DNA of 64,000 nucleotides from Sporosarcina ureilytica. GTDB taxonomy: Bacteria > Bacillota > Bacilli > Bacillales_A > Planococcaceae. A program made the position numbers and the translations under genes. Location: contig NZ_CP017560.1 in the NCBI RefSeq assembly GCF_001753205.1, forward strand, positions 1,302,001 through 1,366,000, read 5' to 3'. This document shows positions 14,038 through 20,966 of this stretch, piece by piece. The notes under the pieces are model-generated. The model worked only from the letters and a program-made list of their open reading frames with translations. It had not been told where the DNA came from and searched no databases. Within the stretch, counting starts at the first letter, position 1. Every line of letters begins with the position of its first letter.

Positions 14038-14418
14038 TTAATTCTTCATAAGCTTTTCGATTGGATTTTTCCAGTTAATTTCAGCAGTTGGATAATTGGA
14101 TTGAATCTCTGATTGTAGAAAAAGAAAGTCATCTTTTGTAAAGCCTTGTAATTTTGCTTCATTTTTAACCCAAACGAAGATGGTGACTACATCAAAAGAA
14201 TTTTTAGTCGTGCCTAAATACTTTTCCCCTTCGAACATGGCGCCTTTATACGTAATAAAAAAGTTTTTGCGTACATTTTTAACATCATCGTAAAAGTAGT
14301 ATCGTTCAGCTTCATATGCATCATCTAATTTCCGTTTAGGATCAGTCAGATAACGAATCCCACGGTAAAACAAATAAATAATTAAAACGATGATGGCGAT
14401 GCGAATTAAGAGTCCCAT
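14038..14418 (-). CDS. ysdB: YsdB-like sigma-W regulon protein
   Basis: 126-residue protein with one N-terminal helix (MGLLIRIAIIVLIIYLFYRG) and a cytosolic-looking domain: DPKRKLDDAYEAERYYFYDD, VRKNFFITYKGAMFEGEKYLGT, and a YPTAEINWKNPIEKL end. It resembles B. subtilis YsdB, whose function is unknown but which belongs to the sigma-W cell-envelope stress regulon. A perfect sigma-W promoter lies just upstream, and AAAGGGGG precedes the ATG. Unlike B. subtilis, where ysdA and ysdB are neighbours in one direction, here the gene is inverted relative to ysdA. Confidence 0.82.
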   Translation of the reverse strand: MGLLIRIAIIVLIIYLFYRGIRYLTDPKRKLDDAYEAERYYFYDDVKNVRKNFFITYKGAMFEGEKYLGTTKNSFDVVTIFVWVKNEAKLQGFTKDDFLFLQSEIQSNYPTAEINWKNPIEKLMKN

Positions 14419-14455
14419 AAAGGTTCCCCCTTTTTAGAAAAATATAGTCACCACT

Positions 14456-14483
14456 TATACGGATGACATTCAAAAAGGTTTCA
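14456..14483 (-). promoter_or_regulatory. Sigma-W promoter of ysdB
   Basis: On the minus strand TGAAAC (14483-14478), 16-nt spacer, CGTA (14461-14458): a full match to the sigma-W consensus TGAAAC-N16-CGTA. Confidence 0.85.
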
Positions 14484-14561
14484 ATAAAAAGTATGAATTA
14501 AAGATTATATTTTTAAAAGTTCATTTCGAAATGCTAAATAAACGATAATGAGGGATAAACA

Positions 14562-14996
14562 TTGGAATTTACATTAAAAATTAACTTAATGCACGAAGAT
14601 GCGCAGATGCCAAATCGGGCAAATGAAGGAGATGCTGGACTCGATATCTTTTCGGTTGAAGAGAAAATCGTGAAAGCAGGCGAGACATCTTTGATAAGTA
14701 CGGGGATTCAAATGGAATTGCCTAAAGGAACTGAAGCGCAAATTAGGCCAAGAAGTGGCTTAGCATTAAAACACGCAGTTACGGTTTTAAATAGCCCAGG
14801 AACAATTGACGAAGGCTATAGGGGAGAATTAAAAATTATATTAATTAACCACGGAAAAAAAGATTTTAAAGTGGAAAAACATATGAGAATTGCACAAATG
14901 GTCATTGCGCCAGTCTTGCAAGTGACGCTGGAACAGACAAAAAATCTTACGGATTCGGATAGAGGACAAGGCGGATTTGGATCCTCCGGGAAATAA
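14562..14996 (+). CDS. dut: dUTP diphosphatase
   Basis: Trimeric dUTPase (dUTP to dUMP + PPi), keeping uracil out of DNA. 144 residues from TTG 14562 after GAGGGAT. All five family motifs are visible: 1 EGDAGLDIF, 2 RPRSGLALK, 3 [13 protein letters not shown], 4 [10 protein letters not shown], 5 [10 protein letters not shown] at the C-terminus. Transcribed alone, with a terminator after it. Confidence 0.96.
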
Positions 14997-15009
14997 ATAA
15001 AAAAGTGGA

Positions 15010-15052
15010 AGAGAAAAGTTGATGTGATTGAAAATCAACTTTTCTCTTTTTT
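15010..15052 (+). terminator. Terminator after dut
   Basis: GAGAAAAGTTGAT pairs perfectly with ATCAACTTTTCTC, followed by TTTTTT. Confidence 0.9.
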
Positions 15053-15209
15053 GCGTTCAAAAAAATGACTTAAGAATATCTCTTTATCATCAGCTACTAA
15101 TTTCCTACTATCATGCATAGAGTTAGGTACGGGAAATTATTAAGTGAGGAGGAGACAACTTTAACAGCTGTTCAAACAGAATATTAAATTTAAGGGGGGA
15201 GTAGAACGA

Positions 15210-16952
15210 ATGAATGCAATCGTATTGGCGTTAATTGGTATGTTGATTTTGGCACTAGGCTATCGTTATTATTCAAAAATTGTTGCGGAAAAAATATTTC
15301 GCCTTGATCCCAATTATGTGACACCTGCTCATCGTTATAAAGATGATGTCGATTTTGTTCCGACGAACAAATTCGTTTTATGGGGACATCATTTTACGTC
15401 TGTTGCAGGTGCAGCACCGATTGTTGGACCGGCAATTGCTGTTTATTGGGGATGGCTGCCTGCCTTTTTATGGGTCATTCTTGGTACAGTTTTCGCGGCA
15501 GGGGTGCATGACTTTGGGACGCTCGTACTTTCTGTGCGTCATAAAGGACAATCTGTTGGTACACTTGCACACCGACTCATTGGTCAGCGTGCAAAAATAT
15601 TGTTTTTGTTCATCATTCTAATTTTAGTTTTAATGGTAAACGCTGTATTTGCGTGGGTCATTTCGAATTTATTTATACAGTTTCCAGCGAGTGTACTTCC
15701 GGTGTTTATTCAAATCCCACTTGCGATTTGGATTGGGCATGCCGTTTATAAGAGAAAACAAAAAATGCTTGTTCCGTCGCTTATTGCACTTGCGGTTATG
15801 TATATTGCAGCTGTATTTTCCAGTGAGTTCAGTTTCCTTCAAATCGACCTTGTAAGGTATATGGGCGGGGAAAATGGAGCCGGACTGTTTGGACTTGGTG
15901 CTGTTTCAACAGCATTCTTCATCTGGATTGTCGTCTTAATGATTTATGTGTATATCGCTTCGGTTCTTCCGGTATGGAAATTGTTGCAACCCCGTGACTT
16001 TATTAACTCACATCAACTTGTAGTAGGCCTTGGTATTTTGTATATTGGCCTATTATTTGTGAACCCAACAATTACGGCGCCTGCGACAAATGCAGTGAGT
16101 GACGTATCTTGGTTTCCTTTACTCTTCATAACCATCGCTTGTGGGGCAATCTCAGGTTTCCATGGATTAGTTTCTTCAGGAACCTCATCAAAACAATTGA
16201 ATAAAGAAACGGACGCTCGATTCGTCGGTTATCTAGGGGCAGTTGGAGAAGGTGTGTTGGCGTTAATTTCTATTATTGCCGTCATTACATTTTTCCCGAA
16301 TAAAGAGGCGTTTTCTGCTTCCTATTCCAGTTTTGCTGCAGCTAGTTCTGGAGGACTAGGGAACTTTGTAAAAGGGGCTAGTAATCTTGCGATGGGTCTC
16401 GGAATTCCGCCAAGTATTTCGACGACAATCGTTTCAATCATTGTTGTCAGTTTCGCGGCGACTACACTCGACTCGTCTTTACGATTAATGCGGTATATTA
16501 TTTCTGAGCTCGGTGTTGAATATAAAATACCTGTACTAGAAAAGAAGCATGTAGCTACATCAGTTGCAGTCGTTTCAAGTGCAGCATTGGTTCTATTACC
16601 GAAGGGTCCTCAAGGATTTGGGTCTGGTGGCTATTTACTATGGCCGCTTTTCGGAACCGCAAACCAACTATTAGCTGGAATTAGTTTACTCTTAATTTCC
16701 ATTTGGTTGAAGCGGCTTGGCAGGAACTACATGGTCACCATTATTCCGATGGCGTTTGTCATGTTTATGACACTTTGGGCGATGTTCCAGCAAGTCATCT
16801 TTGAATGGTCTTGGCTGGGCACCAGCTCAAATATGCTCCTGTTCATCTTCGGAGCAATTATCTTCGTCTTTGCGGTTTGGATCATGCTAACCGCAATTTC
16901 GGCCCTGTCAGGGAAGTACGACAATAAAGTTTCTAGTAAAGAGGAAGACTAA
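15210..16952 (+). CDS. cstA: CstA family carbon-starvation/pyruvate transporter
   Basis: Polytopic inner-membrane protein of 580 residues with about 15 hydrophobic segments. CstA-family proteins take up pyruvate (and peptides) when carbon is scarce. Family signatures: DPNYVTPAHRYKDDVDFVPTN, GHHFTSVAGAAPIVGPA, VHDFGTLVLSVRHKGQS and SGTSSKQL, the last being the helix that follows GFHGLV. Ribosome site AAGGGGGGAG. No two-component or regulatory gene is adjacent, and the single-gene unit is closed by a hairpin. Confidence 0.93.
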   Translation: MNAIVLALIGMLILALGYRYYSKIVAEKIFRLDPNYVTPAHRYKDDVDFVPTNKFVLWGHHFTSVAGAAPIVGPAIAVYWGWLPAFLWVILGTVFAAGVHDFGTLVLSVRHKGQSVGTLAHRLIGQRAKILFLFIILILVLMVNAVFAWVISNLFIQFPASVLPVFIQIPLAIWIGHAVYKRKQKMLVPSLIALAVMYIAAVFSSEFSFLQIDLVRYMGGENGAGLFGLGAVSTAFFIWIVVLMIYVYIASVLPVWKLLQPRDFINSHQLVVGLGILYIGLLFVNPTITAPATNAVSDVSWFPLLFITIACGAISGFHGLVSSGTSSKQLNKETDARFVGYLGAVGEGVLALISIIAVITFFPNKEAFSASYSSFAAASSGGLGNFVKGASNLAMGLGIPPSISTTIVSIIVVSFAATTLDSSLRLMRYIISELGVEYKIPVLEKKHVATSVAVVSSAALVLLPKGPQGFGSGGYLLWPLFGTANQLLAGISLLLISIWLKRLGRNYMVTIIPMAFVMFMTLWAMFQQVIFEWSWLGTSSNMLLFIFGAIIFVFAVWIMLTAISALSGKYDNKVSSKEED

Positions 16953-16960
16953 CAAAGGTT

Positions 16961-16993
16961 GAAGGGATGGCGCTATAGTCTATCCCTTCTTTA
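16961..16993 (+). terminator. Terminator after cstA
   Basis: GAAGGGAT pairs with ATCCCTTC around a 13-nt loop, followed by TTTAC. Confidence 0.6.
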
Positions 16994-17016
16994 CATATTG
17001 GAAAAGGAGGAATTAC

Positions 17017-17274
17017 ATGCTTGATAAAATGAAAGCACTAATTCATTGGTATGAAGAAGTGTTAAGCATGCCGCATCGTCGTGAAGTGGCGAGTGAACTT
17101 AGAGACGAAGATGATTTATTTCTGCTTCTGCTTTATTCAGAAATGATTGGCATACCAAACCCGGTATATTACTACACACTAGAACTGTATCCTTATATGA
17201 TTGAAAAATTTCATGATTGGCATTTACGAATGGGAATGGAGAAATCACCGTTGTCTGGATTTCGTTGTTGTTAA
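17017..17274 (+). CDS. Cory-CC-star family protein
   Basis: 85-residue acidic protein ending in two cysteines before the stop (SGFRCC), the feature that names the cory-CC-star family. Visible: an N-terminal amphipathic stretch (MLDKMKALIHWYEEVLSMPH), a hydrophobic patch (DLFLLLLYSEMIGIPNPVYYYTLEL), and a C-terminal helix. No signal peptide. Function is unknown. GGAGG precedes the ATG. The ArsA-family ATPase starts 15 nt later, so the two are cotranscribed, and the terminal Cys pair could bind metal or a thiol partner (inference). Confidence 0.8.
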   Translation: MLDKMKALIHWYEEVLSMPHRREVASELRDEDDLFLLLLYSEMIGIPNPVYYYTLELYPYMIEKFHDWHLRMGMEKSPLSGFRCC

Positions 17275-17289
17275 AAAGGAGCTGAAAAA

Positions 17290-18222
17290 ATGGAGATGTT
17301 AAAGAAAGATATCCTGTTTGTAGGGGGAAAAGGCGGCGTTGGAAAATCAACTTCAGCTGCAGCAATCGCATTAAAGAGTGCACAAGAAGGGTATAAAACA
17401 TTATTAATTTCTACAGATCCAGCACATAACGTCGGCGATATTTTTGAAACGAAAATCGGCGGTAAAACGACAGAAGTCTCAAAGAATTTATATGCCCTTG
17501 AAATTGATCCTGAATTAGAAACTGAAAATTATATAAAAAGCGTGAAGGAAAACATTAAAGGCGTCGTTAAATCTGCTATGATGGAAGAAGTACATCGTCA
17601 GTTGGATACAGCAAAAGCATCGCCAGGAGCAGATGAAGCGGCGTTATTCGATAGATTAATAAACATCATCTTGGAAGAACGTACGCATTTCGATAAACTG
17701 ATTTTTGATACAGCACCCACGGGTCACACAATCCGTCTCCTATCTTTACCTGAATTAATGGGCGTTTGGATTAAAGGACTGCTTGAAAAACGAAGAACGA
17801 CGAATGAAAATTATTCGAGATTAATTAATGACGGCGAACCTGTGGAAGATCCCATTTATGATGTATTGCGTGTAAGACAAGCCCGTTTTTCCAAAGCACG
17901 TGAAATATTGCTAGATGAATTGCAAACAGGCTTTATATTCGTTCTCAATCCCGAGCGCTTACCCATTTTAGAAACAAAAAAAGCAATTGAACTGCTAAGC
18001 AATTATGATTTACAGGTGTCTACACTCATTGTGAATAAAGTATTACCAGATGATGTAGATGGAGATTTCATGATTGAACGTAAAAAACATGAGAAACAAT
18101 ATATTGATAAAATAGAAGAAACATTTTCTGAGCAAAAATTACTGTATATACCACTATTCTCCAAAGACATTGTGAGTAGAAAACAATTAACGCTTTATAG
18201 TCATTATTTTGAGGAAGGATGA
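17290..18222 (+). CDS. ArsA/Get3-family ATPase
   Basis: Single-domain, 310-residue ATPase of the ArsA/Get3 branch of the SIMIBI class. Deviant Walker A GKGGVGKST at 13-21, STDPAHNVGD (switch region and ADP-contact motif) near 40-50, and DTAPTGHTIRLLSLPE from Asp140. Arsenite pumps carry two fused copies and ars operons; neither arsB nor arsR is present, so arsenite transport is doubtful. More likely it handles a client protein or metal together with the cory-CC-star partner upstream. Its stop overlaps the start region of the following oxidoreductase gene. Confidence 0.88.
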   Translation: MEMLKKDILFVGGKGGVGKSTSAAAIALKSAQEGYKTLLISTDPAHNVGDIFETKIGGKTTEVSKNLYALEIDPELETENYIKSVKENIKGVVKSAMMEEVHRQLDTAKASPGADEAALFDRLINIILEERTHFDKLIFDTAPTGHTIRLLSLPELMGVWIKGLLEKRRTTNENYSRLINDGEPVEDPIYDVLRVRQARFSKAREILLDELQTGFIFVLNPERLPILETKKAIELLSNYDLQVSTLIVNKVLPDDVDGDFMIERKKHEKQYIDKIEETFSEQKLLYIPLFSKDIVSRKQLTLYSHYFEEG

Positions 18223-18227
18223 GGCAA

Positions 18228-19214
18228 GTGAAAGCTTTTGTGCATGAGTTTGGTCAATTGAAAATTAAGGGAATGGAAGTCCCGACTGCAAGTGACGGAG
18301 AAGTCGTTGTTGCACTTAGGACCGCTGGCTTAAATCGACGTGATCTATATATCCCAAATCGTCGAGGAGACGAAGCAGGGGCCCTCATTTTAGGTTCTGA
18401 TGGGGCAGGGGTTATTGAGGCGATTGGTGAAGGCGTTACAAATGTTTCAGTAGGTGATGAAGTGATGATTAACCCGGCACTTCGTTGGAATGAAAACAGC
18501 GTTGCACCGCCAAAAGAGTTTGATATTTTAGGGATGCCGGATAACGGGACATTTGCAGAAAAAATTGTATTGTCGGCGGAACAAGTAGAAAGAAAACCGG
18601 AATATCTTACTTGGGAAGAGGCCGGGGTTGTCGCGTTAGCTGGCTTAACGGGATATCGCGCTTTGTTTACAAAAGGTAAATTACAAGCTGGAGAGACGGT
18701 CTTCATTCCAGGTGCAGGAAGCGGAGTTGCGACGTATTTAATTTCATTCGCTAAAAATATTGGAGCACGCGTGATTGTAACATCTCGAAGTGAAGATAAA
18801 CGTAGACAAGCATTAGCATTAGGCGCCGATATTGCGCTCGATACGAACGAAGATTGGGGACTAGCGTTAGCGGAAGAAACGATAGATCTCGTAATCGATA
18901 GTGTAGGACGTGCAACATTTAACCGTTCTTTAGACATCTTGAAAAAGGGCGGGCGAATTGTCGTCTTTGGCGCGACAACTGAAGATACGGTGGATTTAGA
19001 TTTACGGAACTTCTTTTACAGCCAGTTCCAATTACTTGGTTCAACAATGGGAAGCCGTGAGGAATTGCGTGAGATGATTGCACATATTGAAAAATATGAA
19101 ACACGTCCAGTCCTTGATAAAGTATTCGATCTTCAAGACGCGGCTGAAGCGTTTCGTTATTTAGAAGAGAGCAAAAACTTTGGGAAGATTGCTTTGCGAA
19201 TTAATGCCAATTGA
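18228..19214 (+). CDS. MDR-family zinc-independent alcohol dehydrogenase/quinone oxidoreductase
   Basis: Medium-chain dehydrogenase/reductase of 328 residues. GroES-like N-terminal domain (MKAFVHEFGQLKIKGMEV, LNRRDLYIPNR, LGSDGAGVIEAIGEGV) and Rossmann NADP-binding domain with GAGSGVATYLISFAKNIGA near 165-180 and TSRSEDKRRQALALGAD. The structural-zinc cysteines are absent, pointing to a quinone-oxidoreductase or enoyl-reductase type; the substrate cannot be told. I chose GTG 18228 (GGATGAGG 5 nt upstream, protein begins MKAFVHE); an ATG at 18219 overlaps the arsA-like stop as ATGA. Third gene of the cory-CC-star operon. Confidence 0.88.
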   Translation: MKAFVHEFGQLKIKGMEVPTASDGEVVVALRTAGLNRRDLYIPNRRGDEAGALILGSDGAGVIEAIGEGVTNVSVGDEVMINPALRWNENSVAPPKEFDILGMPDNGTFAEKIVLSAEQVERKPEYLTWEEAGVVALAGLTGYRALFTKGKLQAGETVFIPGAGSGVATYLISFAKNIGARVIVTSRSEDKRRQALALGADIALDTNEDWGLALAEETIDLVIDSVGRATFNRSLDILKKGGRIVVFGATTEDTVDLDLRNFFYSQFQLLGSTMGSREELREMIAHIEKYETRPVLDKVFDLQDAAEAFRYLEESKNFGKIALRINAN

Positions 19215-19285
19215 TAACAGGTTCACTTAAGTGTTAAATCAAAACCAGAAAAATATTCACAGACACAACACAGTAGATAAGCTCG

Positions 19286-19332
19286 AAAAGAAGGATAGGT
19301 AAGCAGTTAAACTGCATAACCTATCCTCTTTT
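19286..19332. terminator. Bidirectional terminator
   Basis: AAAAGAAGGATAGGT pairs with ACCTATCCTCTTTT (one mismatch), with an inner GCAGTTAAACTGC palindrome. A-run on one side and T-run on the other fit use by both the oxidoreductase operon and the convergent minus-strand operon. Confidence 0.85.
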
Positions 19333-19345
19333 GTACGCTAATCCT

Positions 19346-19516
19346 TTAAATGTCCAGCTTGTTTGTTGAGGTTTTTAATGTTTGCGTAGAATCAAGATAA
19401 ATGTCTAAAAATGTACCATCAGTAAATTTGATTACTACTGCACTAGGCGTAATCGCAACATCTTCCACTGTCAATCCTTTCAGTTTTTCAGGTGAAACTG
19501 TATAGTTATTCTCCAT
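19346..19516 (-). CDS. Small hypothetical protein downstream of tyrosine phenol-lyase
   Basis: 56-residue frame starting at ATG (19516) with AAGGGAC about 8-10 nt upstream on the minus strand; that site overlaps the end of the lyase gene, whose stop is only 19 nt away, so translation is probably coupled. Sequence begins MENNYTVSPEKLKGLTVED and has a compact beta-rich look (VAITPSAVVIKFTDGTFLDIYLD). No signal peptide, helix or known motif. I do not recognise the family. Confidence 0.65.
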   Translation of the reverse strand: MENNYTVSPEKLKGLTVEDVAITPSAVVIKFTDGTFLDIYLDSTQTLKTSTNKLDI

Positions 19517-19535
19517 TTTATAAAGTCCCTTCAGT

Positions 19536-20966
<1,431 letters not shown>

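Follow-up and report, generated by a model that had tools for sequence, protein, structure and literature searches.

The window analysed here, a stretch of 64,000 nucleotides from Sporosarcina ureilytica (contig NZ_CP017560.1, positions 1,302,001 to 1,366,000 of the forward strand), carries a three-gene unit encoding a CstA-family carrier, a small protein that ends in two cysteines (cory-CC-star, with its CC tail) and a single-domain ArsA-type ATPase. The MDR-family reductase encoded directly after these genes lies outside of the unit. We consider it fairly likely (about 0.6) that the unit, which we take as an instance of the published CstA-CstX-ArsA arrangement, is an importer in which the small protein links a carrier of LeuT fold to an ATPase dimer, ATP gates or energises transport, and the CC tail serves as a thiol switch. 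An initial annotation of the locus had grouped the small protein, the ATPase and the reductase as one tightly spaced cluster. Its three open reading frames (ORFs) were confirmed at 17017–17274, 17290–18222 and 18219–19214, all on the + strand, together with the 85-residue CC-ending product and the overlap of the last two genes, but the key gene, cstA, directly upstream, had been overlooked.

The first gene of the unit, cstA (15210–16952, + strand), encodes a carrier of 580 aa of what we call the short type. It scores 483.5 bits against PF02554 (cut-off 27) and 240.2 bits against NF011590, the equivalog model of the pyruvate/proton symporter CstA, which is below that model’s cut-off of 1188. 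Its stop codon lies 64 bp 5' of the small gene, on the same strand. The small gene (17017–17274, +) encodes 85 aa that match the NCBIfam model NF041419 (cory-CC-star) over its full length with 125.3 bits (cut-off 80), and the protein ends in GFRCC, with the terminal pair, Cys84-Cys85 (codons at 17266–17271, +), as its only cysteines. The 310-aa ATPase (17290–18222, +) scores 290.6 bits against TIGR00345 (cut-off 135) and 279.5 bits against PF02374, and its P-loop, GGKGGVGKST, is encoded at 17323–17352 (+). The reductase (18219–19214, +) is a PIG3-like protein of 331 aa with matches to PF00107 and PF08240, and its ATG shares 4 bp with the stop of the ATPase gene. Families arsB, acr3, arsP and arsR were not found among the seven proteins at 14038–20960 with two profile libraries, in keeping with the initial description of a Get3-like ATPase without arsenic partners.

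Conservation of the unit and features of its proteins

We examined the linkage of these genes in 398 genomes of the class, taken as Bacilli. NF041419 was present in 45 genomes, in all of them above its curated cut-off, and CstA of the window’s type (E ≤ 1e-120) was present in the same 45. In these genomes the small protein has 47 places, each of them same-strand and directly 3' of a CstA of this type; the small gene comes next at 47 of the 49 places of this CstA. A single-domain ATPase lies 3' of the small gene at 47/47 places (the copy in genome G467 is cut by the contig end), and the whole unit is present twice in G412 and G557. Were the genomes independent, a complete match between the two sets of 45 would have a log10 P of −60; as the genomes are related, this figure is not used. 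The linkage between the small protein and the ATPase is far beyond chance. Within the window’s own genus, the unit was present in 3 of the 10 genomes drawn and the other 7 had no part of it.

For the genomes without the small protein, we considered 20, all from the window’s family (333 others are beyond this list). Five of them had ATPase matches (E 1e-25 to 1e-32), in frames of 589–608 aa, which is the size of a double-domain ArsA. CstA was of the long type in 6, gave a weak match in 10 (E ~1e-32 to 1e-36) and none in 4, and the six with only a long CstA had no ATPase of the window’s type. At 4/6 long-CstA loci without a CC partner in the window’s family (L145, L148, L149 and L150), the next gene encodes a conserved, membrane-like protein of ~110–120 aa ending in GYRMF.

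A second sample came from a scan with alignment A1, which matched at least 593 stretches; the 80 named loci are the best of at least 513 confirmed relatives and, from the genus names in their titles, we presume all to be Bacillales. The CC end was found in 80/80, the ATPase downstream in 80/80 and CstA upstream in 77/80, with two of the three misses (L105, L122) at contig ends. The unit is also present on plasmids of Pseudochrobactrum algeriensis and Paracoccus aestuarii, annotated as carbon starvation protein A, cory-CC-star protein and ArsA family ATPase. Further out, 23 of 398 genomes of the phylum had NF041419 matches at E 1e-3, 3 of them above the cut-off; of 14 control genomes, Haloferax volcanii alone gave a match, which scored below the cut-off. 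Ten distant loci (L180–L189) show the order CstA, small relative and ATPase, the last as one gene or two in tandem. A CstA-profile match was found in 20/20 genomes with distant relatives. Carrier, small protein and ATPase are thus the core of the unit.

The small protein is 93% identical to its counterpart in Sporosarcina jiandibaonis. Its predicted fold is a two-helix hairpin (helices 2–39 and 51–71, joined by a GIPNP turn) with the tail, residues 72–85, free in the model (mean predicted local distance difference test, pLDDT, 83.7; predicted template modelling score, pTM, 0.58). Its best 19-residue Kyte-Doolittle mean is 1.14, and among 39 sequences (alignment A4) these means range from 0.72 to 1.77, exceeding 1.5 in six; judged by hydropathy, a membrane-spanning segment in the window protein is unlikely. 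A sequence search of solved structures gave no match for the small protein, and a literature search for the name cory-CC-star found no paper. Across the family, the CC tail is strongly kept in one part and not in all.

No cysteine is present in the window ATPase, and none is conserved among 91 aligned partner ATPases (>40% identity to the window ATPase, at least 280 aa): 64/91 are free of Cys over their last 330 residues, and the best column reaches 8/91. By comparison, each column of the P-loop GGKGGVGKxT is at least 95% conserved. The lack of Cys leaves the ATPase with neither an arsenite site nor a Get3 zinc clasp. For the same reason, we excluded a disulfide between the tail and the ATPase. 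Among its solved relatives by sequence are eukaryotic Get3 proteins, which rank behind chains named as ATPase ARSA1 and as arsenical pump-driving ATPase. Like the ArsAB pump, the window pairs an ArsA-type ATPase with an adjacent membrane carrier, but the ArsA of the pump has two domains, Cys113/172/422 and ArsB as its partner, whereas the window ATPase has one domain, no Cys and CstA as its partner. Get3/TRC40 proteins carry a zinc CxxC at the dimer interface. The window ATPase resembles them as a single-domain ArsA-type ATPase that would be expected to work as a dimer, and it differs in having no CxxC and in belonging to a carrier operon where no tail-anchored client was seen.

The model of CstA (pTM 0.90) has a LeuT/APC fold, and LeuT was among the top matches when it was used as a Foldseek query; its best VIA-align alignment had Z 25.5 and a root-mean-square deviation of 3.7 over 389 aligned residues. 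Searching solved structures by sequence gave no match for CstA. Cys311, the sole Cys of the window CstA, belongs to the motif ACGAxSGFH, is invariant in 131/131 aligned CstA proteins and falls in the model at the break between helices 301–308 and 316–324, a discontinuous helix. In carriers of LeuT fold, such a break is usually at the substrate site. Pairing of the tail cysteines with Cys311 was considered and rejected, as this residue is also kept in 6 long-type CstA proteins without a CC partner and in 10 with a non-CC partner; being invariant regardless of partner and placed at the helix break, it is not partner-specific. On a CstA tree made with a quick method, the kind of small partner takes 4 changes over 5 groups, which is the minimum. 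By analogy to characterized relatives, the substrate is probably pyruvate or a related carboxylate, and possibly peptides. Two weaker matches to the CstA profile elsewhere in the genome (G000:C1 755579–756073 and 1212643–1213110, in frames of ~490–510 aa) are probably other carriers of related fold.

The published unit and the E. coli carriers

The initial annotation’s suggestion that this system was not yet described does not hold, as the small protein belongs to the curated family NF041419 and a CstA-CstX-ArsA unit was reported by Castillo and Saier (2010, PMC2963123). That paper describes 26 cases in which CstA is accompanied by an ArsA homologue, 24 of them with the small protein CstX; co-evolution of the three proteins is reported, and it is proposed that CstX couples ATP hydrolysis by ArsA to transport by CstA. 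Cluster 17 of the study includes Oceanobacillus iheyensis and Bacillus halodurans, and single-domain forms are stated there not to conserve the E. coli ArsA cysteines. The window shares with these cases a CstA, a small protein of ~90 aa and a single-domain ArsA of ~300–330 aa in one operon without ars genes, with the three genes adjacent and all on the + strand. From operon position, size and genera, we infer that cory-CC-star is the CstX of Castillo and Saier; by score and terminal Cys-Cys, the window protein is a member of NF041419, and no difference from it was seen. The CC tail of CstX is not mentioned in the accessible part of PMC2963123, and YbdD, YjiX and selenocysteine do not occur in its main text.

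A parallel is found in E. coli, where ybdD comes next after cstA, and yjiX and then yjiA (a cobW-type GTPase) come after btsT. YbdD and YjiX both end in RCC (1 of 11 relatives taken ends in CPC). According to Hwang 2018 (PMC5847655), E. coli lacking cstA retains 13% of the wild-type pyruvate uptake, and E. coli lacking ybdD 20%; by analogy to YbdD, a small partner may be needed by the window carrier as well. YbdD does not occur in Gasperotti 2020. A pyruvate-specific phenotype is given for a Desulfovibrio vulgaris cstA mutant in PMC10102598. In DUF466, the PF04328 family, some proteins end in Cys-selenocysteine, for which redox chemistry was suggested (PMC4607533, 2015) in a text that does not mention CstA. 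Some of these proteins carry the NCBI name ‘CstA-like transporter-associated (seleno)protein’, and the matches of E. coli YbdD and YjiX to NF033934, the model of the KCU-star selenoprotein, are below its cut-off; the link to CstA is therefore known to curators.

YbdD and YjiX resemble cory-CC-star in following a CstA-family carrier, in the C-terminal Cys pair and in a GxPxxxxY core, but they accompany the long type of CstA, and no ArsA was seen in the loci examined. We did not retain homology between the two families as an explanation: three hhalign comparisons gave probabilities of 0.9 to 1.1%, and the local score was reached by 4 of 200 column-shuffled YbdD alignments, a hint at most. The window protein had no Pfam match at E ≤ 0.1 (PF04328 included) and no KCU-star match at E ≤ 10, and a search of solved structures with the YbdD sequence gave weak chance matches. 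PF04328 was found in 0/199 genomes of the phylum. A strict exclusion of YbdD and cory-CC-star was also rejected, as PF04328 matches 3 of 65 chosen genomes (2 above the cut-off), beside a long CstA and in the same genomes as the cory unit. The class genomes G416 and G399 each have a long CstA with a YbdD-type protein ending in RCC directly after it, and both also carry a short CstA with cory-CC-star and ATPase.

A possible mechanism and its alternatives

For the importer outlined above, the two helices of the small protein would sit between the cytoplasmic face of CstA and the ATPase dimer. Binding and hydrolysis of ATP would gate or energise transport by CstA via the small protein, and the CC tail would be a thiol (redox or metal) switch on the contact between carrier and ATPase. 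Energisation by the ATPase is the proposal already made in PMC2963123. A redox role for the CC pair is favoured, by analogy only, by the selenoproteins of the YbdD family (PMC4607533).

Several observations weigh against this importer. At the E. coli CstA (ybdD) and BtsT (yjiX) loci no ArsA gene is adjacent, so that ATP coupling is not general to the carrier family. CstX is called a protein with a single transmembrane segment in PMC2963123, and in the window protein no such segment is clear. A literature search found no experimental follow-up of CstA-CstX-ArsA (other matches were off-subject by title). The linkage has exceptions as well: 2 of the 49 CstA places in the class genomes are second CstA copies without the small gene (G562, G732), and the named locus of Salinicoccus albus (L096) has no CstA within 12 kb. 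At seven distant loci (L173–L179), the CC-ending relative stands away from CstA with the ATPase next in six (~0.5 kb later in L177) and the seventh running off its contig. CstA-profile matches occur elsewhere in these genomes (in two of them, CstA itself is only a fragment), an arrangement which implies that the small protein and the ATPase are separable from the cstA locus. Lastly, distant relatives ending in AIF, ALF, AIY or LFDL keep the unit without CC, so the tail is not required for the linkage, and there is an in-frame TAG in the small gene of one locus of this non-CC type (L185, genome G340).

The ATPase might instead be a maturation factor, as the G3E GTPase YjiA may be, that would load a metal or redox site formed by the CC tail or repair that site, after which the small protein alone would activate CstA. 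In E. coli, btsT-yjiX-yjiA likewise runs from carrier to small RCC protein to P-loop NTPase, which fits this idea, as do the metal roles of the cobW family and the preference of YjiA for zinc (PMC7895991 and PMC2770081), and as the partner ATPases have no conserved Cys, any thiol site would need to come from the small protein. However, E. coli cstA-ybdD has no adjacent GTPase gene, no YjiA relative (E 1e-15) was found in the other loci searched, nine YbdD plasmid loci included, nor in the annotation of L198, L199, L200 and L202 (the PLSDB annotation is incomplete), and units without the CC tail still hold the ATPase. We consider such a maturation role unlikely. Still more doubtful is a broader reading in which Cys-Cys and Cys-selenocysteine ends arose by convergence in cory-CC-star and YbdD/KCU-star, since CstA importers would need a cytoplasmic thiol tail. 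Two tails on an ATPase dimer would then form a four-thiol site replacing the zinc clasp of Get3, and ATP-driven uptake would be switched by redox state or metal.

The ATPase could also be a Get3-like targeting factor that assists the membrane insertion of CstA or of the small protein, and eukaryotic Get3 is indeed among its solved relatives, behind the ARSA1 and arsenical pump-driving ATPase chains. We regard this as very unlikely: with no Cys, the ATPase cannot form the CxxC zinc clasp of Get3, the small protein is not clearly membrane-spanning, the six listed genomes of the window’s family with only a long CstA do without this ATPase, and a chaperone dedicated to a single polytopic carrier would be unusual. 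The initial idea of the small protein as a tail-anchored Get3 client is not supported, given the first two of these points. That annotation had also joined the small protein, the ATPase and the reductase in a three-part targeting or metal/redox relay. The genes do adjoin in the window, with the reductase start overlapping the ATPase stop, and the reductase lies within 400 bp after the ATPase in 51/80 named loci. Yet of the 45 genomes with the unit, 17 have the reductase gene adjacent, 14 have it at another place and 14 gave no match at E 1e-70; it is absent from the two plasmid units, and 8 of the 20 genomes listed as lacking the unit have it all the same, unlinked. Because it is adjacent in 17/45 only and occurs without the unit, we treat the reductase as a neighbour and not a part. 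It has no Cys, which makes its earlier description as zinc-free plausible and also speaks against the relay, a reading to which we give almost no credence. The neighbourhood comparison across Bacillales that had been suggested as a check therefore upheld the link of small protein and ATPase, at 47/47 places and in 80/80 named loci, and did not uphold that of the reductase.

Flanking features and significance

Between cstA and the small gene is a possible stem-loop (16961–16989, +). The fold of 16950–17020 has −16.3 kcal/mol and z −1.64, which is not significant alone, and in relatives the gap reached z < −2 in 35/56 (40 shuffles each), after 24 of the 80 loci had been dropped for having no CstA or a gap outside 40–200 nt. 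It is possible that this element sets the ratio of carrier to partner. No cre-like site (≤1 mismatch) was found 5' of cstA in the 14.9–15.2 kb stretch, and promoter- and terminator-like sites in 14900–19500 were no commoner than in shuffles. Beyond the reductase, a gene for tyrosine phenol-lyase (TIGR02618, above cut-off; 19536–20960, − strand) is oriented toward the operon, and beside it is a 56-aa ORF (19346–19516, −) without a family match above cut-off. Tyrosine phenol-lyase is a pyruvate-producing enzyme.

Other small proteins were seen near the unit in relatives. A protein of ~95–108 aa is encoded just 5' of the cory gene, and after CstA where CstA is visible, in 10 of the 80 named loci and a few others (L197 4687–4974, L122, L126, L132, L133, L134, L136, L137, L138, L141, L142, L034, L040 and L042), and it adjoins a divergent CstA in L155 (486–809). 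No match above cut-off was obtained in Pfam (four members scanned) or NCBIfam (three members scanned), and one member matched Thioredoxin_3 weakly and in part (E 0.0034, below cut-off); this protein may be a further accessory. Small relatives with a His-rich N-terminus and a C-terminal HIH or HVH occur within ~5 kb of the CstA-small protein-ATPase unit, outside of it (L014, L017, L018, L020, L033). In L173, L174, L175 and L178, a small protein of no assigned family precedes the CC-ending relative, and in L173 and L174 a WYL-domain regulator comes before it.

With its borders corrected, what had been a puzzling three-gene cluster becomes a recognised importer unit. The window adds another member to this unit and allows a side-by-side view with YbdD/KCU-star, and the reductase is shown to lie outside. 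CstA-type importers keep small partners with Cys-Cys or Cys-selenocysteine ends, and one type of CstA also keeps an ArsA ATPase; these two facts were not found joined in the literature examined. Together they raise the question of whether a carrier of LeuT fold may be driven or gated by an ATPase through a CC-tailed subunit.

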